64,000 nt of DNA from contig JAIYAZ010000068.1 of NCBI GenBank assembly GCA_027488755.1, forward strand, positions 1-64,000. The letters are read 5' to 3'. Each line of letters opens with the position of its first letter. Position 1 is the first letter of the stretch. Position numbers and translations under genes: made by a program. This document shows, piece after piece, positions 900 to 41,371 of the stretch. The DNA is from Verrucomicrobiaceae bacterium. GTDB taxonomy: Bacteria; Verrucomicrobiota; Verrucomicrobiia; Chthoniobacterales; JAATET01. Below the pieces are notes generated by a model. It worked only from the letters and a program-made list of their open reading frames with translations, had not been told where the DNA came from and ran no database searches.

Positions 900-2303
900 A
901 TGAACGTATCTCCTGCCCTGGTGCTGGCCGGCTTGCTCGGCATTTCCTCGATTTCCCCCCTGAGCGCCGCGGACTCGCGGTTTTGGGATTATTACAATCC
1001 GAAGCCGTCGAATTACATCGGGTCCCGCGAGTGGTGGGAGGGCGAGACCTTGAGCGGGGATTGGTGGGGCATTCGCAACATGCTCGACCAGGAGAACGGC
1101 GTGGAATTTTCGTTCACCTACACGAACAACATCGCGGGCAATCCGGTGGGCGGGAAGCAGCAGAGCATGACGTATTGCGACAACGTCGGCTTCGGCGTGT
1201 CGGTGGACCTGGAGAAGCTCGTCGGTTGGACGGGCGGGATGATCACGGTGAGCGGGCTGAATCGCGCGGGGCAGAGCCTGTCGGAGATCGCGATTGGCAA
1301 TCAGTTTACCGTGCAGCAAGTCTACGGCGGGCAGACGGCAATGTATTACGCGCTGGCCTTCGAGCAGCGGCTGCTGGACGACAAGATCGGGATCAAGGTC
1401 GGGCGGTTTTCGACGGGCGATGATTTTGCGAGCTCGCCGATTTACTGGCTCTACATGAACAACGGCATCGACGGGAATCCCCAGGCGCTGCCGGTGAACA
1501 CGCAATTCTCCGCGTATCCGTGGGCGGTGTGGGCGGCGCGCGTGAAGGTGCAGCCGACGCCGGAGCTGAGCGCGATGTTTGGCGCGTATCAGGTGTCGAA
1601 CCGCGTGTTCAACCGCGCCTACAACGGCGTGGACTGGAGCATTCGCCCGGACGACGGCGTGCTGCTCATCAGTCAGTTCGGCTGGACGCCGGAGTTTTTC
1701 AAGCGAGACGTGCCCGCCGCGGAGCCGGCCGGGAAACCGGCGGCGGCACCCGACGGCAAGACGGAGGCGAAGAGCTTCAAGCAGCCGGTGGAGATGGTGC
1801 GCAAGGGGCTGCCGGGCCATTACTGGTTCGGGTTTTACTACTCGCCGTGGCAGTTTGCGCAGTTTGGCACGACGGACACGGCGACGAATTCTTACGGCTT
1901 TTACTGGCATGCGGACCAGATGGTGTTCCAGGAGGCGCCGGGGTCGGATCAGGGCCTCACAATCTGGAGCGCGGTGGTGCTTTCGCCGCAGCAGAACATC
2001 GCGAAGCTGCCGTTCCAGGTGAACGGCGGCCTGGCCTACAAGGGGCTGATCCCCACGCGCGACAACGACCAGACGGTCTTTGGCGTGGTTTACGGTCAGT
2101 TCAGCGACGACTACGCGGCGGCGACCGAGGCGACCGGCGGCGGTTCGCCCGAATACGAACTTGTCTTCGAGTGGGGCTACCGCGTGCAGTTCAACCAGTG
2201 GCTCTACGTTCAGCCGAATCTCCAATACGTGATCAACCCCGGCGGCGCGCACAACATTCCGAATGCCCTCGTGCTGGGCGCGCAGTGCAGCGTGACGTTT
2301 TAG
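900..2303 (+). CDS. OprB-family carbohydrate porin
   Basis: A 467-residue outer-membrane protein. The ATG at 900 gives a clean signal peptide ([11 protein letters not shown]-like core, cleavage near LSA-AD); an ATG at 873 would add nine non-conserved residues. The body alternates amphipathic strands rich in aromatic and Gly residues and ends in VTF with a terminal Phe, as beta-barrel proteins do. The early [18 protein letters not shown] segment is typical of OprB, where the family begins with a conserved Trp/Gly-rich stretch. OprB porins pass sugars across the outer membrane. A Pro/Ala/Lys-rich loop lies near residues 280-310. It sits upstream of a sialate-esterase-like gene on the same strand, which fits a role in glycan uptake, but the substrate cannot be read from the sequence. 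Confidence 0.85.
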
Positions 2304-2384: not shown

Positions 2385-3902
2385 ATGAAAACCCCCGCCC
2401 TCCTCGTCGTTCTGTTGCTCTCCGCTCTGCCCGTTTGGGCGGAGGTGGTGCCGAATCCGCTCTTTTCCGATCACGCCGTGCTCCAGCAGGGGCGGCCGAT
2501 TCCCGTGTGGGGAACGGCGCGGGCGGGGGAAAAGGTCACCGTGGAGTTTGCCGGTCAGCGCGTGGCGACCACGGCCGGGGCGGACGGGCGCTGGCAGGTG
2601 AAGCTGGCCCCGCTGAAGGCGGGTGGGCCGCATGAGTTGACGATCCGCGGCGACAATGTCGTGACGATCGCGGACGTGCTGGTCGGTGAGGTTTGGGTGG
2701 CCAGCGGGCAGTCGAACATGGAGCGGCAGCTTGGGCTGCGGCCGCCGCAGTTGCCGATCGAGAATTGGGAGCAGGAGGCGGCGGCGGCGACGTTTGACGC
2801 GATCCGGCAGTTCCGCGTCGAGCCCGGCATGGAGAACGAGCCGCGCAGCGCGGTGAAGGGATCGTGGCTCGTGTGCTCGCCCGCGACGGCGAAGGATTTT
2901 TCGGCGGTCGGGTTTTTCTTTGCGCGGGACCTCTACCGCAAACTCGGCGTGCCCGTCGGGCTCCTGTTCTCGTCGGTGGGCGGCACGAAGGCCCAGGCGT
3001 GGATGAGCCGCGCCACGCTGGAGGCCTCGCCCGCGCTGCGGGAGGTTTTTGCCGAGCAGGCGAAGGCCGAGGCCGACTATCCGGCGGCGCTGGCGAAGTA
3101 TCAGACCGAGGAGGCGGCGCTGCTGGCCAAGTGGCAGGCGGAGAGCGACGCCGCGACGAAGGAGGGCAAGCCCGCGCCGCGCAAACCCGGCCCGCCGCGT
3201 GATCCCCGCACGGGCACGAGCCGGCCGACCGTGCTTTACAACGCGATGATCGCGCCGCTCATTCCCTACGGCATTCGCGGGGTGATCTGGTATCAGGGCG
3301 AATCCGACTGCGGGAACCCCGCGCGTTACCGGCTGCTGTTTCCCGCGCTCATCACGAGCTGGCGGCAGGCCTGGGGGGAGGGGGATTTCCCGTTCCTCTT
3401 CGTTCAGCTCGCCCCCTACCGCAGCAACAATCCCGAGCTGCGCGAGGCGCAGTTCCTCACCGGACGCACCGTGCCCGGCACGGCGATGGTCGTTACCACG
3501 GACGTGGGCGACGCGAACGACATTCACCCCACGCGGAAGGGCCCCGTCGGCGTCCGCCTCGCGCTGGCCGCCCGCGCCCTTGCCTACGGCGAGAAGGCGC
3601 TGGCTTATTCGGGCCCGGCCTTCACCTCGGTGCGGGTCGAGGGCGATCACGTGACGGTTGCGTTTGATCACGCCGCCGGCCTCGCCGCCAAGGATGGCCC
3701 GCTCACGGGTTTTGAACTCGCCGGGGCGGACGGGAAGTTTGTCCCGGCCGAGGCGAAGATCGTCGGCGAGACCGTCGTCGTCACCGCGCCCGCGGTGCCG
3801 GCACCGGCGGCCGTGCGTTACGCCTGGGCGAACGTCCCGACCGGCAACCTTGTGAACGCCGCCGGCCTGCCTGCTTCGCCCTTCCGCAGCAACTCGCCGT
3901 AG
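2385..3902 (+). CDS. Sialate O-acetylesterase-like SGNH hydrolase, secreted
   Basis: 505 residues with a signal peptide at 1-19 (LLVVLLLSALPVWA). It carries the SASA-family hallmarks: an N-terminal beta domain (NPLFSDHAVLQQGRPIPVWG), the nucleophile motif SGQSNM with Ser near residue 110, the IRGVIWYQGESDCGNP block near 300, and a C-terminal Asp/His pair in DVGDANDIHPTRKG near 373-382. Proteins of this family remove O-acetyl groups from sialic acids or other glycans in the periplasm. A Lys/Ala-rich helical insert at about residues 218-270 is not part of the core fold. A second, longer family member lies in the fucose region at 47557-49560. The specific ester substrate is not known. Confidence 0.85.
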   Translation: MKTPALLVVLLLSALPVWAEVVPNPLFSDHAVLQQGRPIPVWGTARAGEKVTVEFAGQRVATTAGADGRWQVKLAPLKAGGPHELTIRGDNVVTIADVLVGEVWVASGQSNMERQLGLRPPQLPIENWEQEAAAATFDAIRQFRVEPGMENEPRSAVKGSWLVCSPATAKDFSAVGFFFARDLYRKLGVPVGLLFSSVGGTKAQAWMSRATLEASPALREVFAEQAKAEADYPAALAKYQTEEAALLAKWQAESDAATKEGKPAPRKPGPPRDPRTGTSRPTVLYNAMIAPLIPYGIRGVIWYQGESDCGNPARYRLLFPALITSWRQAWGEGDFPFLFVQLAPYRSNNPELREAQFLTGRTVPGTAMVVTTDVGDANDIHPTRKGPVGVRLALAARALAYGEKALAYSGPAFTSVRVEGDHVTVAFDHAAGLAAKDGPLTGFELAGADGKFVPAEAKIVGETVVVTAPAVPAPAAVRYAWANVPTGNLVNAAGLPASPFRSNSP

Positions 3903-3956: not shown

Positions 3957-4952
3957 ATGGCGCGCCTTCTGATTTTTCTCCTCGCCCTGCCCGCGCTGCT
4001 GCGGGCGGCGGACTGGCCGGTCACTTCCGTCGACGGCCGCGACTACGTGCCGCTGGCCAGCGTGGCCACGTTCTACGGCATGGGGGCGCCGGCGCGCAGC
4101 GGGGCGAAGATTTTTGCGGCCAGCGGCGGGGGCAAATCGCTCCAGGTGGAGGTCGACAGCCGCGAGGCGATCATCGACGGCGTGCGGCACTGGCTCTCCT
4201 TTCCCGCGCGGCTGGCGAACGGCGCGCCGGCCGTCTCCACCGTGGATCTCCGGCGCACCATCGACCCCGCGCTGCGTCCCGACAAGGTCGCCGGCCTGCG
4301 CCCGGTGCGGACCGTCGTGCTCGACGCGGGCCACGGCGGCCACGACAACGGCGCGCGTTCCCCCTACGGCTCGGAAAAGGAATTCACCCTCGATACCGTG
4401 CGCCGGCTGCGCAAAAAACTTGAGGCCGCCGGCCTGCGCGTCGTCGTCACCCGCAATTCCGACACGTTCATCGAACTCGAAAACCGCCCCCGCGTCGCCA
4501 ACCGCATTCCCGGCGCGATCTTCGTGAGCATCCATTACAATTCCGCGGATTGGAAACCCGCCGCGAACGGCCTGGAAACCTACGCCATCTCGCCGCTCGG
4601 CGCGCCGCCCAGCGGGCAGGATGTCGTGATGGCGCGGGACCGCGAGACCGAGGCCGGCCATGCCCTCGAGCCGGTGAACTTCACGCTCGCGAACACCGTG
4701 CACCACGCCCTCATGGGCCGCCTGCCCAACGCCGACCGCGGCGTGAAGCGCGCCCGCTTTGTCGTGCTCAAGGACGCCGCCGTGCCCGCCATCCTCATCG
4801 AGGGCGGCTTCCTCACGAACCCCACCGAGGCCCGCCGCGTCGCCGACCCCAAGTGGCGCGAGGCCTACGCCGCCGCCATCGCCGCCGGCATCCTCGAATA
4901 CAAACGCCTCGCCGAGCAGGGCGTGAAGCCCCGGGAAAAGGCGGATTGGTAA
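3957..4952 (+). CDS. N-acetylmuramoyl-L-alanine amidase (Amidase_3), secreted
   Basis: 331 residues from the ATG at 3957, which starts a good signal peptide (LLIFLLALPALLRA); an upstream ATG at 3924 would mask it. Residues about 25-110 resemble a copper-amine-oxidase-N-like or AMIN-type accessory domain (VDGRDYVPLASVATFYG). The catalytic zinc amidase domain follows, with DAGHGGHDNG near 122, SEKEFTLD carrying the zinc-ligand Glu, SIHYNSADW with the second His, and the catalytic Glu in ILIEGGFLTNP near 281. This enzyme cleaves the bond between MurNAc and the stem peptide and usually acts in cell separation or wall recycling. Confidence 0.9.
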   Translation: MARLLIFLLALPALLRAADWPVTSVDGRDYVPLASVATFYGMGAPARSGAKIFAASGGGKSLQVEVDSREAIIDGVRHWLSFPARLANGAPAVSTVDLRRTIDPALRPDKVAGLRPVRTVVLDAGHGGHDNGARSPYGSEKEFTLDTVRRLRKKLEAAGLRVVVTRNSDTFIELENRPRVANRIPGAIFVSIHYNSADWKPAANGLETYAISPLGAPPSGQDVVMARDRETEAGHALEPVNFTLANTVHHALMGRLPNADRGVKRARFVVLKDAAVPAILIEGGFLTNPTEARRVADPKWREAYAAAIAAGILEYKRLAEQGVKPREKADW

Positions 4953-4957
4953 GGGGG

Positions 4958-4992
4958 GTTGATAGTTAAGGGTTGAGGGTTGATAGGTGATG
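4958..4992. repeat. Heptamer array, GTTGATR type (5 units)
   Basis: GTTGATA, GTTAAGG, GTTGAGG, GTTGATA and GGTGATG follow one another without gaps. It belongs to the same family as the arrays at 9395, 10096 and 10158. Confidence 0.8.
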
Positions 4993-5070
4993 GGCGAGGG
5001 AAGCCCCATCTTTTCGCTTGAAATCCCCGCGCGGCGACGGTATGTAGAGAATTATCCACCCGAGCGACAC

Positions 5071-5907
5071 ATGAATCCCTCCCCCCTCCTCCCCCGCCGC
5101 GTCTTCCCGGTTTTTCTTCTGTTGGCCGGCCTTTCGCTGGCCCGGGCGACCTCTCTGGTCACCGTGGCCGAGAACCCGAATGACTTCACCTCCTCCCTCG
5201 GCGGGACGAGTCTTTACTCGTTCGACAACCTTAAACTCGGCCTGAACAAGAACGTGAGCTGGGACAAGGTGGGCACGTTCGATCAGCTCTACGTGCAGGC
5301 CTACAATCAATACGGCGGCGCGCCGGACGCGGAGTTTCCCGGCGGCAGCCCGTATTCCACGCAATCGCGCAACGTCGGCGTGGTCGCGACGACGCTCACG
5401 TTGAACACGCCGAGTTCCTACTTCGGGTTCTACTGGTCGGCGGGCGACGCCTACAACAAGCTGCAATTTTTCAACGGCAGCTCGCTGGTGGCCGAGTTCA
5501 CCACGGCTTCGCTGATGAAAGAGCTGCCGAAGACCTATTACGGCAATCCGCTGAACCGCCGGCAAAACGCGGGCGAGCCCTACGCGTTCATCAATTTTTA
5601 CGGCGACGCCTCGACGACGTGGAATCGGATCGTGCTCACGAACAATGGCACCTCCGGCTTCGAGTCGGACAACTACACGTCCCGCATCGCGGCGTGGACC
5701 GCCAAGCTGGACGGGGCCATCACCGGCCGGCCGGTGCTGGAGGTCAATGGTTCGACGGTCACCACGGTGGCCGCGCTCAGCCCAAAGTGGGCGTATGAGC
5801 CCAATGCCCCCGGCGCGCCGGCGCCGCCGCTGCTCGCCGTCGTGGCCTTCGGCCTCGTGCTGGGGTTGCGGGCGATTCGCGACCGCAAGGCGAACCGGCA
5901 AGGGTAG
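5071..5907 (+). CDS. Secreted protein with PEP-CTERM-like sorting tail, probable exosortase substrate
   Basis: 278 residues. Residues 1-26 form a signal peptide (VFPVFLLLAGLSLARA). The middle (YFGFYWSAGDAYNKLQFFNG, YAFINFYGDASTTWNRI) resembles the beta-sandwich core of many PEP-CTERM proteins, which often carry a choice-of-anchor module. The last 30 residues have the tripartite sorting layout: a Pro-rich motif PGAPAPP, a hydrophobic helix LLAVVAFGLVLGLRAI, and a basic end RDRKANR. This is a variant of the usual VPEP motif. The exosortase gene starts 36 bases downstream, so the two are probably co-transcribed and form a dedicated pair. What the mature protein does outside the cell is unknown. 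Confidence 0.8.
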   Translation: MNPSPLLPRRVFPVFLLLAGLSLARATSLVTVAENPNDFTSSLGGTSLYSFDNLKLGLNKNVSWDKVGTFDQLYVQAYNQYGGAPDAEFPGGSPYSTQSRNVGVVATTLTLNTPSSYFGFYWSAGDAYNKLQFFNGSSLVAEFTTASLMKELPKTYYGNPLNRRQNAGEPYAFINFYGDASTTWNRIVLTNNGTSGFESDNYTSRIAAWTAKLDGAITGRPVLEVNGSTVTTVAALSPKWAYEPNAPGAPAPPLLAVVAFGLVLGLRAIRDRKANRQG

Positions 5908-5943
5908 TCATTTCCTCCCGGGTTGCGGCCCGGGCTTCGCCGC

Positions 5944-7407
5944 ATGAATCCGAGCCCGCCCCGTTCGCCGCGCGCGGGTGCCGGGGCGGTGCTGCTCCGC
6001 ACGGTGCTGCCGATCCTGCTCGTGACCGGGCTGACCCGGTTGTCGGCGGCGCAGGATTTTTTCTCCGGGGTGTCGCGGCCGATCGTGCTCGGGCTGCTTG
6101 GCTTGCTGGGCGTGCCGGGCGAGGACCTCGGGCACACGATCCGCGTCGGGCGGCTGGAGGTGCCGTGGACGGGGGATTGCGCGGGATTAAATCTCCTGCT
6201 GCTGCTGCTCGCGGTGGCGATCTGGGTGAACCGCCGGGAACCGCTCGGCTGGCGCTACGCGGCCCGCGTGCTGCTCATGGTGCCGGCGGCCGTCGTTGCC
6301 AACGTCGCGCGGATCTTCACGCTGCTGGCCTACCGGGAGTGGAACTACCCGGGGATCGAGAGCCCGCAGCTGCATTACTTCTTCGGCCTGGCGTGGCTGG
6401 TGCCCTTTGCGGTGCTGGCGATGCCGGGCGGACCGCGGCCGCTGGCGGCGCGGGTGTTTGAGCTGCTGCACGTGGCGGCGATCATCGCGCTGCTGGCTCC
6501 GCTTACGGACGGCCCGGGCGGGATCAGCCTCGCGGTCGCGGTCGTGCTGGGCCTGGCCCATTGCCGGCTGCCGGCGCGCGTCTCGCCCGCGCGGGCCGTT
6601 CTGCTCGGGGTCTGGCTGGTGGCGGCCGGCGGCATTGCGCTTACGGGCATGGAGTCGTTCTGGCTGCCGTGGCTGCTGGTGTGCCCGTTGCTGGCGGATC
6701 CGCGCTGGGTTTTCCGCCCGGCCGGGGCGGTGCTCACGCTGGCCGCGCATCCGCTGTTTGCGATGATCCCGGGGGCAGAATGGATCACGTGGGCGGCGGT
6801 CGCCGCGGCTCTGTGGGGGGATTTCCGGCGGCCGGTCGTCTCGGGGTCCGCGCCGGCGGAGGGCGGGGAGTTTTCGCGGGGTCCGGGGGGGCGGGTTTTG
6901 CTCGGGGCGTGTGCCGCGTTGTTTGTGCTGCCGTTCCTCGCCTCGACGCTCATCGCGGGCAAGGAGGAGACGTGGTCGCTTCCCGTCGACGCGGACCGGA
7001 AATCCGTCCCGGGCAATGGTTACGCCCTGCGCCTGCCGGGACAGCCGGAGCAGCTTGGGCTGCTTTGGTATCCGGCCCGGGGGACCGAGCGGCACCATTC
7101 GGTGACCGCGTGCCTGAAGTATCGCGGCATCTCGCTGGCGCCACTGGCCGGGGCGACCGGGGTTTTCACCGACGGCACGCACCTGGTGCGGGAGTATTTT
7201 TTGCAGAACGGCCGGCTGATTTCCACGCACCTCGACTACGTGCTGGCCACGCTGGGGCCGCGCACCTCGGCAGGCGTGCACCTGATCTTTATGACGCCGA
7301 AGGACGCGATGAGCGTGGAGGAATTTCAGGCGGCCTCGGCCCGGACGGCGGCGGAGCTTTTCGCCGAGATCACGCGGGAGAAGGCGGCGGCGGACCCGGC
7401 GCGCTGA
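5944..7407 (+). CDS. Exosortase with EpsI-like C-terminal region
   Basis: 487 residues, starting at the ATG at 5944 (a TTG at 5923 lacks support). The N-terminal half is a multi-pass membrane domain with the three exosortase catalytic residues: Cys79 in TGDCAGLN, Arg123 in VANVARIF, and His144 in SPQLHYFFGL. Two further hydrophobic blocks follow (about 155-285), then a last membrane helix near 310-330. The C-terminal 150 residues (TACLKYRGISLAPL, LVREYFLQNGRLI) resemble the periplasmic EpsI-type domain that accompanies or is fused to exosortases. The enzyme is predicted to cleave the C-terminal tail of the preceding gene's product and pass it to a surface anchor. I do not assign a named Xrt subtype. 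Confidence 0.85.
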   Translation: MNPSPPRSPRAGAGAVLLRTVLPILLVTGLTRLSAAQDFFSGVSRPIVLGLLGLLGVPGEDLGHTIRVGRLEVPWTGDCAGLNLLLLLLAVAIWVNRREPLGWRYAARVLLMVPAAVVANVARIFTLLAYREWNYPGIESPQLHYFFGLAWLVPFAVLAMPGGPRPLAARVFELLHVAAIIALLAPLTDGPGGISLAVAVVLGLAHCRLPARVSPARAVLLGVWLVAAGGIALTGMESFWLPWLLVCPLLADPRWVFRPAGAVLTLAAHPLFAMIPGAEWITWAAVAAALWGDFRRPVVSGSAPAEGGEFSRGPGGRVLLGACAALFVLPFLASTLIAGKEETWSLPVDADRKSVPGNGYALRLPGQPEQLGLLWYPARGTERHHSVTACLKYRGISLAPLAGATGVFTDGTHLVREYFLQNGRLISTHLDYVLATLGPRTSAGVHLIFMTPKDAMSVEEFQAASARTAAELFAEITREKAAADPAR

Positions 7408-7417
7408 GGTCGGGGGA

Positions 7418-7747
7418 TCAGTGCGCGGAGGTTTTTGAGAACACGTTCAGCACGACCACGCCGGCGATGATGAGGCTGATGCCGAGGACGGCCGCGGCGT
7501 CGAGGGCCTGGCGGTAGACCGCCCAGCCGACGAGGGCGACGAGCGCGGTGCCCGCGCCGGACCAGATCGCGTAGGCCACGCCGACGGGGATCGTTTTCAG
7601 CACGTGCGAGAGGCCGTAGAACGCCGCGCCGTAGCCGAGGATGACGACGACGGAGGGCCAGAATTTCGTGAAGCCGGCGGAGGCTTTCAGGCAGGAGGTG
7701 GCGATGACCTCGGCGAGGATGGTGAGGGCGAGGATGAGGTAGGGCAC
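7418..7747 (-). CDS. Small multidrug resistance (SMR/EmrE-type) transporter
   Basis: 109 residues with four membrane helices and a GTG start at 7747. The membrane-embedded Glu essential for proton/drug exchange is present in LAEVIATSCLK (Glu13, equal to Glu14 of EmrE). VAYAIWSGAGTALV and the last helix also match the family. It probably works as an antiparallel dimer exporting cationic compounds or guanidinium. It is convergent with the exosortase gene, only 10 bases away. Confidence 0.9.
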   Translation of the reverse strand: MPYLILALTILAEVIATSCLKASAGFTKFWPSVVVILGYGAAFYGLSHVLKTIPVGVAYAIWSGAGTALVALVGWAVYRQALDAAAVLGISLIIAGVVVLNVFSKTSAH

Positions 7748-7807
7748 GCCCCGTTGCTCGCCGAGCGGGCGCGGCTTGGCAAGCGCGGGATGGTGGCGGG
7801 GCCGTCG

Positions 7808-9067
7808 CTAACGGAGCGGGCCGGGGAGGGCTTTTTCGGTGAGGGCGATGCCCTGCGCGGCGACCTCGTCGCGGGCGCGGGGGCTGGCGGTGCCGGTGAG
7901 GTAGATGTGGCGGCCGGTGATTTTCTGGTCGGGGATGGTGCCGTTTTTGAAGGCCGTGACGAACTGGGCCGCGCCGGGGGTCCAACTGGCGTGGTCCCAT
8001 TCAATCGGGGCGATGAGGGTGCCGTCCTTCGCGAGGGCGAGGGGGATGCCCTGGTGGGCGGAGAGGAGGGCGAGGGGCTGGCGGTCGTGAATGTGCGCGA
8101 GGAGCTGAGCGCTGCGGAGGTAGGAATTCGCGTCGGATTCGTCGGTGGAGTCGGCGGCGAGGCGGATGAAGGTTTCGCGGCCGAGGGTCTGGTGGATGCG
8201 CTCCATCGCGTCGACGATGAGGGTCTGGTGCGTGGGGGAGAGGGCGGGGTTGTTGAGGAAGCGGTTCGCGTCCTCGCGGCTGACGCCCATGCCGAGGAGT
8301 TTTTTGAGGTTCTCGCGGCGGAGGTCGTTCGGGCTGAGGTCGCGCAGGGCCTGGAGGGCGGAGCCGCTGGCGTTCACGCCGGTGATGGCGAGGCCGGCCG
8401 CGCCGCCGATGGGCATGAGGGCGCCGGCGAAGGTCATTTTGCCCGCGTAGGAGGCCCAGGCGACGCTGTCGAGCTCGTGCTGGAGCACTTCGTTGGTCGA
8501 GTAGGGATCGACGCCGAGCTCGGCGGCGAGCTTCCGTTTGACCTCGGAGAGGCCGATGAGGTCCTTGAGGGCGTTGTCCTCGTAGTCGGAGGTGGGGCGT
8601 TGGCTGGCGATTTCCTTGGCGGTCTGGCCGGCGCGGTTGAGCATTTTCCAGACGCCCTTGGGCACGCCGCTCACGGTGTCCACGGGGTGCGCGACGAGGT
8701 TGCCGGCGAGTTCGAGCGGGCTTTTGGCGGCGGCCTTGAGGGCTTCCTTGTAGCGTTCGGTTTTGGAGAGGGCGCGGAGCTGGGCGATGGCGGCGATTTC
8801 GCGCAGGCGGATGACGAGCTGGGTGTTGCCGGTGGCGTGGAAGGTGCCGAAATCGGAGGAGATGATGTAGCGATTCTGGCCGCCGAGGGGGCGGGCCTGA
8901 GGGAAGAGCGAGAAGTTCGGGCCCTGGGTGAACTCGGGCCGGAGGATGACGGTGGTCTCCAGCGTGGGCGGGGTTTCAAAGGCCGGCGTGGGCGAGGCGG
9001 CGGGCGTCTGGGCGGAGAGCAGCCCGGGCAGGGCGAGGAGGAGGGCGAGGGCCGCGCGAGGGATCAT
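7808..9067 (-). CDS. Secreted protein of unknown function
   Basis: 419 residues. The ATG at 9067 opens a clear signal peptide (AALALLLALPGLLSAQ); the longer frame upstream is non-coding and overlaps the neighbouring glycosyltransferase gene. After a short Pro/Thr linker come VILRPEFTQGPNFSLFP and a long, mostly helical region with repeated Ala/Leu/Lys blocks, including a Gly/Ala-rich segment (MPIGGAAGLAITGVNASGSA) that could insert in a membrane. I recognise no catalytic motif. It follows three sugar-transfer genes on the same strand, with an 11-base gap from the nearest one, so a role in the envelope is possible but unproven. Confidence 0.7.
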   Translation of the reverse strand: MIPRAALALLLALPGLLSAQTPAASPTPAFETPPTLETTVILRPEFTQGPNFSLFPQARPLGGQNRYIISSDFGTFHATGNTQLVIRLREIAAIAQLRALSKTERYKEALKAAAKSPLELAGNLVAHPVDTVSGVPKGVWKMLNRAGQTAKEIASQRPTSDYEDNALKDLIGLSEVKRKLAAELGVDPYSTNEVLQHELDSVAWASYAGKMTFAGALMPIGGAAGLAITGVNASGSALQALRDLSPNDLRRENLKKLLGMGVSREDANRFLNNPALSPTHQTLIVDAMERIHQTLGRETFIRLAADSTDESDANSYLRSAQLLAHIHDRQPLALLSAHQGIPLALAKDGTLIAPIEWDHASWTPGAAQFVTAFKNGTIPDQKITGRHIYLTGTASPRARDEVAAQGIALTEKALPGPLR

Positions 9068-9077
9068 GCGCGCCACG

Positions 9078-10094
9078 TTAGGGGCCCGCGCGGCGCGGGG
9101 CGAGATTTTCGGGTAGGGCGGCGAGGACGGCGGCGGCGGGGATGCGGTCCATCGGGGCCTGGGGGTAGGCGGGGCGGAGGTCGGGTTCGCCGCAGGCGGT
9201 GACGAGGCGGGAGGTGGTGCGGCGGGGGCGCCAGTGGAAGGGGTTCGTGGGGCCGAAGAGGGCGACGACCGGGACACCGAGGGCGTCGGCAAAATGGACG
9301 GGCGCGGAGTCCACGGCGGCGACAAACTGGGCACGTTCCAGCACGGCGGCGGTGCCGAGGAGGCTGAGCTTGCCGGCGAGGATCGCGGGCAAGGGTTGAT
9401 GGTTGAGGGTTGAGAGTTGATGGGTGATCGCAGCGAGGTGGGCGCGTTCGGCGGGGTCGTTGGAACCGGTGAGGACGACGGGGAGGCCGCGCTCTCGCTG
9501 GACGTGGCGGATGACTTCGGCCCAGCGTTCGGGGAGCCAGTATTTTTCGGCGCGGGCGGTGCCGGGATGCACCACGACGAAGGGGCCGGTGATGCCGGCG
9601 GCGGCGAGGGCGGCGTCGGCTTCGGCGCGGGCCGCGGGCGGGAGGTGGAGCGTGGGCGGGAGGCCTTCGACGGTGAGGCCGAGGGGGCGGAGGAGGTCGA
9701 GGTGGTGGTCGACGGTGTGGCGGTCGCGGACGGAGGATTCGACGAATTCGGTGTAGAGCGCGCGGCGGAGGGGTTTTGTCGCGAAGCGCTGCCAGGTGAG
9801 GCGGCGGGGGGCGCGGGAGAGCGCGGTGGCGAGGGCGGAGCGGTCGTTGCCGGTGAGGTCGAGGGTGACGTCGAAGCGGCGGGTGGCGAGGGGGAGCCAG
9901 AGGTTTTGGCCGCGGAGGAGGATGGCGTCCGCGTCGAGGGCGGGAGCGAGGGCGGCGGTGGCGCGGTCGAGGGCGAGGGTGAGGTGGACGCTAGGAATGC
10001 CGGCGCGCAGGGCGGCGAGGACGGGCGTGGTGAGGATCGCGTCGCCGATGCGCTTGAGCTGGATGATCAGGACCCGGGGGGGCTGATCAGGCAG
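9078..10094 (-). CDS. Glycosyltransferase family 9 (heptosyltransferase-like), start codon uncertain
   Basis: About 338 residues. The N-terminus PRVLIIQLKRIGDAILTTPV and the C-terminal half (FVVVHPGTARAEKYWLPERW, VDSAPVHFADALGVPVVALFGPTNPFHW) are classic GT9, the family that adds heptose to lipid A core using ADP-heptose. No ATG, GTG or TTG lies in frame before the conserved start; the upstream in-frame stop is at about 10180. A CTG at 10094 gives a short plausible N-terminus and is my working start. The only other CTG, at 10070, is inside the conserved strand. Residues encoded by 9395-9429 (ITHQLSTLNHQP) come from a heptamer array and look like an in-frame insertion. Confidence 0.75.
   Translation of the reverse strand: MPDQPPRVLIIQLKRIGDAILTTPVLAALRAGIPSVHLTLALDRATAALAPALDADAILLRGQNLWLPLATRRFDVTLDLTGNDRSALATALSRAPRRLTWQRFATKPLRRALYTEFVESSVRDRHTVDHHLDLLRPLGLTVEGLPPTLHLPPAARAEADAALAAAGITGPFVVVHPGTARAEKYWLPERWAEVIRHVQRERGLPVVLTGSNDPAERAHLAAITHQLSTLNHQPLPAILAGKLSLLGTAAVLERAQFVAAVDSAPVHFADALGVPVVALFGPTNPFHWRPRRTTSRLVTACGEPDLRPAYPQAPMDRIPAAAVLAALPENLAPRRAGP
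9395..9429. repeat. Heptamer array, GTTGATG type, inside the GT9 gene
   Basis: GTTGATG, GTTGAGG, GTTGAGA, GTTGATG, GGTGATC: five 7-bp units, translated on the minus strand as part of the GT9 protein without a frameshift or stop. Confidence 0.85.
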
Positions 10095-39718: not shown

Positions 39719-41371
39719 TCAGCGAAAAATGACGTAGAGCACGACGAACGCGAGCGTCACCGCGGCGGCCAGCACCCGGTAGTCGGCGAGTCCCGGCCAG
39801 CCGGCGCCGCGCACGCAATCAAGCGGTCGGACCCAGTGCAGGCGTTGCGGATCCTCGTCCGGCTGCTTTGGCCGCAGGATCGTAAGCCCGACCTGGAGCG
39901 CGACGCAGGCCACGAACATGTAGAAGGCCATGAGCATGAACGGCGTTTTGTAAAACAGCGGCGGAATCCAGCCGGTGGCCTCCGGTTGCCAGACATGCAG
40001 CGTCTTGAGGGTGTAAACAACCACCCCGAGCAGCGAGCCGAGCCACATGGTCCACTTGGCGCTTTGGGCGGATGCGGCCGGCCAGAAAATCCCGAGCAGA
40101 AACACGCAGGTAATCGGTGGCGCGAGGTGGGCGATGATGTCGTTGATTCCCGCAAAAATGCTCTGGTAGCGGTCGAGCAGGGGAACGAGGGCGATGCCCA
40201 GCGCGAACGAAGCGAGGGAGGCCGCCCGGCCGATCCAGACGAGGCGCACTTCGGGCGTGGCGGGCGCGAAGCGCTTCCATAAATCGTAGCTGAAAAGCGT
40301 GGCGGTGGAGTTCGCGGCGCTCGCGAGATTTCCCATCAACGCAGCCATGAGGGCCGCGGCCATGACTCCGAACAAACCAGGCGGGAGCAGGCTGTGGATC
40401 ATGATGCCATACACTTCTTTGCTGTCGGAAACGACCACGCCCGGCAGGCGCTGCTGCTGGAGAATCGCGTAGAACAGCAACCCCGGCAGCACAAAGATGA
40501 AGAGCGGGAGGATCTTGATTGCCGCGCAAAACAACGCGCCGGAGCGGGCGTGATTCTCGTCCTTCGCGCCGAGCACCCGCTGCACGATGGTCTGGTCCGC
40601 GCACCAATACCAGATGCCAAGCACCGGATAACCGAGGAAGATCGCGAACCACGGAAAATCCGGCTCCACGGCGGGAGACTTCAGCAGCGAGAGTTTTTCA
40701 AGTTCGCCGTGGGCGTGGAGCGTCGTCACCAGCCCGGACCATCCGCCGGCGAGATGCCAGGCAAACGCGGTGATGAGGATCGCGCCGAGGAGCATGACGA
40801 TCGCCTGCACCATTTCGGTGAGCACCACGGCGGCCAATCCGCCGAAGACCGTGTAGATCGCGGTGAGGCTGCACATCAGCAGGATGCACGTCCATTTCTC
40901 GATGCCGAAGACGGCGTGCAGGACCACCCAACCGGTGACCAGCGGGAACGCGATGTGAAAGATAATCGCGGCGAACATCGAGACGACCGCCAGCCAATCC
41001 CGGCATTCGCGGCAGTAGCGGCGTTCCAGAAAATCCGGGAGGGTGGCGACCTTTGAGCGGAGGTAGAAGGGCACGAACACCAGCGCGAGAAGCACGAGGG
41101 TGAACCCGGCCATCCATTCAAAATTGCCCATCAGCAATCCGTGATCGAAGCCTGCCTGGGCGAGGCTGACGAGGTGAACGCAGGAGATGTTCGTGGCGAA
41201 AAGGGCCAGGCCGATCTCCGGCCACCGCAGCGAGTTCGAGGCGAGGAAGTAGCCGCTCGCCGCCTGCTGCCGGCGGCGTTGGCGGAAGCCCGCAAACACG
41301 CCGAGGCCGACGATGAGGACGAGGTAGGCGCCGATGACGAGCCAGTCGATGATTTGAATGCGGGAGGACAT
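39719..41371 (-). CDS. Sodium/solute symporter (SSS family), probable fucose uptake
   Basis: 550 residues with about 14 membrane helices. The SSS/SGLT signature elements are clear: GYFLASNSLRWPEIGLALFATNIS, TVFGGLAAVVLTEMVQAIVM, GYPVLGIWYWCADQTIVQRVLGAKDENHARSG and the AALMAALMGNLASAANSTATLFSYDLW block that forms the Na+ site. The closeness to SGLT-type sugar transporters fits sugar uptake. Its place between the FAH hydrolase gene (11 bases away) and the mutarotase gene makes L-fucose, or a fucosylated sugar, the best guess. Confidence 0.88.
   Translation of the reverse strand: MSSRIQIIDWLVIGAYLVLIVGLGVFAGFRQRRRQQAASGYFLASNSLRWPEIGLALFATNISCVHLVSLAQAGFDHGLLMGNFEWMAGFTLVLLALVFVPFYLRSKVATLPDFLERRYCRECRDWLAVVSMFAAIIFHIAFPLVTGWVVLHAVFGIEKWTCILLMCSLTAIYTVFGGLAAVVLTEMVQAIVMLLGAILITAFAWHLAGGWSGLVTTLHAHGELEKLSLLKSPAVEPDFPWFAIFLGYPVLGIWYWCADQTIVQRVLGAKDENHARSGALFCAAIKILPLFIFVLPGLLFYAILQQQRLPGVVVSDSKEVYGIMIHSLLPPGLFGVMAAALMAALMGNLASAANSTATLFSYDLWKRFAPATPEVRLVWIGRAASLASFALGIALVPLLDRYQSIFAGINDIIAHLAPPITCVFLLGIFWPAASAQSAKWTMWLGSLLGVVVYTLKTLHVWQPEATGWIPPLFYKTPFMLMAFYMFVACVALQVGLTILRPKQPDEDPQRLHWVRPLDCVRGAGWPGLADYRVLAAAVTLAFVVLYVIFR

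Follow-up and report, generated by a model that had tools for sequence, protein, structure and literature searches.

A probable dedicated sorting pair of exosortase Z and one PGAP-CTERM protein in a Verrucomicrobiaceae bacterium

An exosortase usually has dozens of clients, for which reason it is difficult to study its specificity or what becomes of the cleaved protein. The locus described here, on a 64,000-nucleotide stretch of a Verrucomicrobiaceae genome (the window), raises the question of whether an exosortase can be devoted to the one tailed protein encoded beside it. The results indicate that the locus is very probably a dedicated sorting pair of exosortase Z (XrtZ) and a PGAP-CTERM protein, the term 'dedicated system' having been defined, exosortases included, in PMC3237569.

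The preliminary description had placed the substrate and exosortase genes 36 bp apart, and the coordinates bore this out. The substrate gene occupies positions 5071-5907 of the forward strand (278 aa; ATG at 5071, with an in-frame GTG at 4987 as an alternative start) and the XrtZ gene positions 5944-7407 of the same strand (487 aa; ATG at 5944 and stop codon ending at 7407, with an in-frame TTG at 5923 as an alternative start). Promoter and terminator scans gave chance-level results only, and searching the DNA for a Pro/Ala-motif pattern was rejected as uninformative in this GC-rich genome, where the pattern matched less often than its reversed control. At 155-404 the window also carries an 18-bp tandem repeat of about 14 copies, in which an open frame encodes a GVGDGL-type repeat.

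The substrate is a secreted surface protein with a signal peptide, an Npun_F0296 family exosortase-dependent surface domain and a PGAP-CTERM tail. The domain, a beta sandwich encoded at 5185-5679 (forward strand), matched NF050191 at 169.7 bits against a cut-off of 29 (E = 5.6e-50 in the NCBIfam search), and the genome scan placed it identically. The tail, encoded at 5803-5880 on the same strand (residues 245-270 of 278), matched NF050189 at 34.9 bits against a cut-off of 25 (E = 1.1e-8) and is laid out as PGAPAPP-helix-RDRKANR, that is, a motif, a hydrophobic helix and a basic end; the C-terminus reads NAPGAPAPPLLAVVAFGLVLGLRAIRDRKANRQG (the end of the protein also being given as PGAPAPPLLAVVAFGLVLGLRAIRDRKANRQG). 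The reading of the Pro/Ala motif as a variant of PEP-CTERM held up, as the PGAP-CTERM profile reported the tail and the PEP-CTERM profile PF07589 did not report it at E ≤ 10 in the genome-wide scan. A Pfam search of the substrate yielded nothing significant, and no relative turned up when solved structures were searched by sequence. Its AlphaFold model (mean pLDDT 82.5) comprises a beta-rich sandwich and a separate C-terminal helix at residues 254-276. A fold search with the substrate returned many carbohydrate-binding modules and beta sandwiches, only at E ≥ 3e-3 and with low TM-scores; these model-based matches hint that the substrate might contact surface polysaccharide or bind sugar, which is a guess. 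In Nostoc, an exosortase mutant had less of the PEP-CTERM proteins from a co-expressed set including Npun_F0296 in its exoproteome, the decreases being mostly not significant after correction (PMC12188702). The Nostoc data lend indirect support to exosortase dependence of the Npun_F0296 domain family.

The enzyme matched the exosortase Z model NF050190 at 594.2 bits against a cut-off of 475 (E = 1.3e-178; profile positions 2-458 of 460). It also passed the cut-off of TIGR04178, which places it in the exosortase/archaeosortase superfamily, and Pfam assigned it to the general exosortase family only (PF09721, over the cut-off). Its full Cys/Arg/His triad, noted in the preliminary description, was confirmed by an alignment of 30 divergent XrtZ sequences, in which the predicted catalytic residues Cys79 (6178-6180, forward strand), Arg123 (6310-6312, forward strand) and His144 (6373-6375, forward strand) are invariant. 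In the AlphaFold model (mean pLDDT 85.1) the exosortase core lies near the N-terminus and is followed by extra membrane helices and then by a soluble domain. This C-terminal domain (about residues 350-483; 6991-7392, forward strand) is folded in the model and has a conserved HHxxxxCxxxRG motif. The C-terminus had been called EpsI-like; a folded domain with an invariant HxxxxC...RG is indeed there, but it matches no EpsI profile. The EpsI C-terminal domain model TIGR02914 was not reported on XrtZ at E ≤ 10, the Pfam EpsI models were likewise unmatched, and hhalign of the domain against the genome's own EpsI-like proteins gave probabilities of 0.4-3.9%, which are not significant. 'EpsI-like' thus describes no more than position and motif, homology not being confirmed by profiles. 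A sequence search of solved structures found no XrtZ relative, and searching by fold with the modelled enzyme returned nothing below E = 0.7, so no solved exosortase backs the model.

In the proposed mechanism, the signal peptide would export the substrate and the C-terminal helix would hold it in the inner membrane. XrtZ, a predicted integral membrane cysteine transpeptidase-like enzyme, would recognise the P-G/A-A-P-x-P-P motif, cleave at it through Cys79, Arg123 and His144, and transfer the beta-sandwich domain to an acceptor, leading to surface display or release. Gene layout, family membership, the invariant triad, the single tail, co-occurrence and co-divergence are observed, and cleavage, transfer, an acceptor and the exclusion of cross-talk are inferred; the explanation as a whole is considered highly likely.

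Whether XrtZ has one client was addressed in the whole genome, a 3.48-Mb draft assembly of 169 contigs that is 99.8% complete. A search for the same tail elsewhere had been set in advance as the attempt to refute dedication. The refutation failed because only one PGAP-CTERM tail in the genome passes the cut-off, namely the one adjoining XrtZ (next best match, E = 0.4), and the proposed one-substrate dedicated system is supported, with one client in the draft assembly. Likewise, as had been claimed, the window contains no second tail of PEP-CTERM type that passes; the best other PF07589 match there lies on the minus strand at 41273-41332 (E = 0.93), within a 550-aa membrane protein. In the genome, at least 26 ordinary PEP-CTERM tails pass the PF07589 cut-off, and two other exosortases are encoded on other contigs, each with an EpsI-like gene close by. 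A PEP-CTERM protein with a DNRLRE domain is encoded just beyond the window (contig G000:C165:65429-65509), and a client of the ordinary PEP-CTERM system is thus encoded on the same contig as the PGAP pair. In all likelihood, XrtZ serves one protein in this genome and the ordinary PEP-CTERM proteins are handled by the two other exosortases; as far as sequence tells, these two might also recognise the PGAP tail.

Among 388 genomes of the phylum, XrtZ over the cut-off was found in five, and PGAP-CTERM was found in the same five and no others. The probability of drawing the same five by chance is about 1.4e-11, or about 1e-7 when the three of them that belong to one genus are counted as one lineage, and the positive side of this co-occurrence is partly circular in that neighbours of XrtZ probably served to build the PGAP-CTERM model. 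The absence of PGAP-CTERM from the 383 genomes without XrtZ lies outside that circularity and is informative. The present genome (G000) and three others (G194, G198 and G215) have one PGAP tail each, and G321 has six. When about 85,000 species genomes were scanned, 32 XrtZ loci were detected, all in Verrucomicrobiota or Lentisphaerota judging by record titles and some in cultured species such as Rubritalea marina DSM 17716 and Lentisphaera marina, and in nearly all loci with enough upstream sequence a protein with a P[GA]AP-x-P tail adjoins XrtZ or lies one gene off. No XrtZ was found on plasmids. In 30 XrtZ genomes of the all-species scan, 18 have one tail, five have two to five, and seven have none over the cut-off, some of these seven having a below-cut-off variant tail beside XrtZ. 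With a duplicate Lentisphaera genome removed and other genomes added to the all-species set, exactly one tail is present in 21 of the 27 XrtZ genomes with detectable tails, and six have 2-6. Dedication is therefore typical but not obligatory. In G321 (loci L087 and L090-L093) there is one XrtZ over the cut-off and four of the six PGAP-CTERM proteins are dispersed, several tails being on unrelated domains, as additional clients may be; this is a dedicated system expanded to six clients. Elsewhere, a gene downstream of XrtZ (L108:7753-8817) encodes a second protein with a Pro/Ala tail (PAAPPAAPLPP-helix-basic), which the PGAP-CTERM model did not detect.

The pair also behaves as a genetic unit. 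Both XrtZ and PGAP-CTERM are absent from all three congeners. In congener G001 the amidase gene that in the window precedes the pair (ending at window position 4951) is followed by about 117 bp and then by sequence matching the window from 9196 onward, and the locus L166 aligned to window positions 975-2303 and 4030-4951 and then to 9196-10063 onward. Since G001 joins both flanks without it, the pair sits in an accessory block (4953-9195, about 4.2 kb) with two more genes, one of them for a transporter of the small multidrug-resistance type. Congener G003 has other sequence at the position of the pair, and the G002 contig stops short of the far flank. The pair is thus a self-contained accessory module, gained or lost as a unit, and nothing but the client and XrtZ itself was consistently conserved when XrtZ neighbourhoods were compared. 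Enzyme and client distances were correlated over 19 pairs (Mantel r = 0.83 for the domain and 0.78 for the tail, p = 1e-4). Upstream of the block, an esterase-like (SASA) gene lies at 2385-3899 between the porin and amidase genes; it is missing there in the three congeners, in which porin and amidase are close together.

These data bear on three other explanations. The PGAP protein might be one more client of the general PEP-CTERM exosortases, with XrtZ redundant or serving other clients. The two further exosortases and the at least 26 PEP-CTERM proteins of the genome would fit this, as would a tail architecture that is alike in outline. However, the PGAP tail is missing from the PF07589 matches at E ≤ 10, PGAP tails occur among the 388 genomes only in those with XrtZ although many others have exosortase-family matches, and the adjacency of enzyme and client is conserved, which together render such a general arrangement very improbable. 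That XrtZ is non-cleaving, and assists the protein encoded next to it as a membrane chaperone or a factor for polysaccharide coupling, appears most improbable: catalysis in the subfamily is predicted from sequence, and the layout with its core near the N-terminus, extra helices and C-terminal domain is unusual, but the triad is invariant in 30 divergent members.

It is less easy to set aside the idea that XrtZ is a small-regulon sorter with one client here by chance, dedication then being lineage noise and not a family property. The six PGAP tails in G321, several of them on unrelated domains, the five in G406 and the three in G391 speak for it. Nevertheless, with one tail in 21 of the 27 genomes and an adjoining client in nearly all, this explanation is considered unlikely. 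The reading of XrtZ and the PGAP-CTERM protein as a dedicated pair is preferred, and the counts support the conclusion that dedication is usual, not obligatory, and is sometimes extended to several substrates.

The XrtZ/PGAP-CTERM system is already curated in NCBIfam, and the locus is an additional member and not a new system. It shows no essential difference from exosortase Z (NF050190) and PGAP-CTERM (NF050189), sharing adjacent genes and the tail motif and passing both cut-offs. Among the papers searched, none was found on XrtZ (as exosortase Z) or PGAP-CTERM, and the family is apparently curated but unpublished. The domain likewise matches the Npun_F0296 family (NF050191), but the Nostoc genome, which has a single exosortase, encodes Npun_F0296 among 35 PEP-CTERM proteins (PMC12188702), whereas the window holds a dedicated pair. 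The canonical PEP-CTERM/exosortase (EpsH) systems share the signal peptide, the motif-helix-basic tail and a Cys/Arg/His enzyme; the window pair differs from them in having a PGAP instead of a PEP motif, one client instead of dozens, and an enzyme in which the exosortase core is close to the N-terminus, with additional helices and a domain fused at the C-terminus. The rhombosortase/GlyGly-CTERM system (PMC3237569) also has one enzyme beside one client in single-client genomes, but rhombosortase belongs to an unrelated protease family, and XrtZ with extra clients still keeps adjacent ones (G321). The present analysis adds evidence for dedication at the whole-genome level together with the exceptions to it, the synteny of the accessory module and a candidate second class.

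The second class came from G194, which encodes an XrtZ (582.9 bits) with an Npun_F0296 client and also a divergent XrtZ-like enzyme (308.7 bits, below the cut-off) with its own adjoining variant-tail client (L085:8370-10747). This different client lies directly upstream of the divergent enzyme and ends in AAPAAPAPSVILGLLLVLSVLVLEGVRKS plus a short further stretch. The family of this client (VNENxSGNES) also stands beside the divergent XrtZ branch at L118, L120, L122, L124 and L127, and between client and enzyme lies a conserved gene of about 350 aa (L118:4937-5998, L120:4661-5998, L122:4637-6031, L124:3507-4550 and L127:4862-6004), with a lipobox-like start in some copies; the copies that were scanned matched nothing in Pfam or NCBIfam. 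The middle gene of L125 is seemingly broken. The divergent branch is grouped in the tree with modest support (83/21), and L121, put in the divergent group before the tree was built, has no visible client. At L117 and L119, XrtZ is paired with a third client domain. There is about an even chance that XrtZ systems are naturally orthogonal enzyme-client pairs of at least two classes, namely class A, with an Npun_F0296 client and XrtZ, and class B, with an unnamed client (VNENxSGNES, tail PxAPxP), usually the intervening gene, and a divergent XrtZ. The two systems of G194 may be naturally orthogonal to each other.

With only two genes and one client, and with both genes gained or lost together, such a module offers a minimal system in which to test cleavage, acceptor and specificity; where one genome has two of them, orthogonality could be tested directly. 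If the two-class reading is true, G194, with one pair of each class, would let sorting specificity be tested inside one cell.
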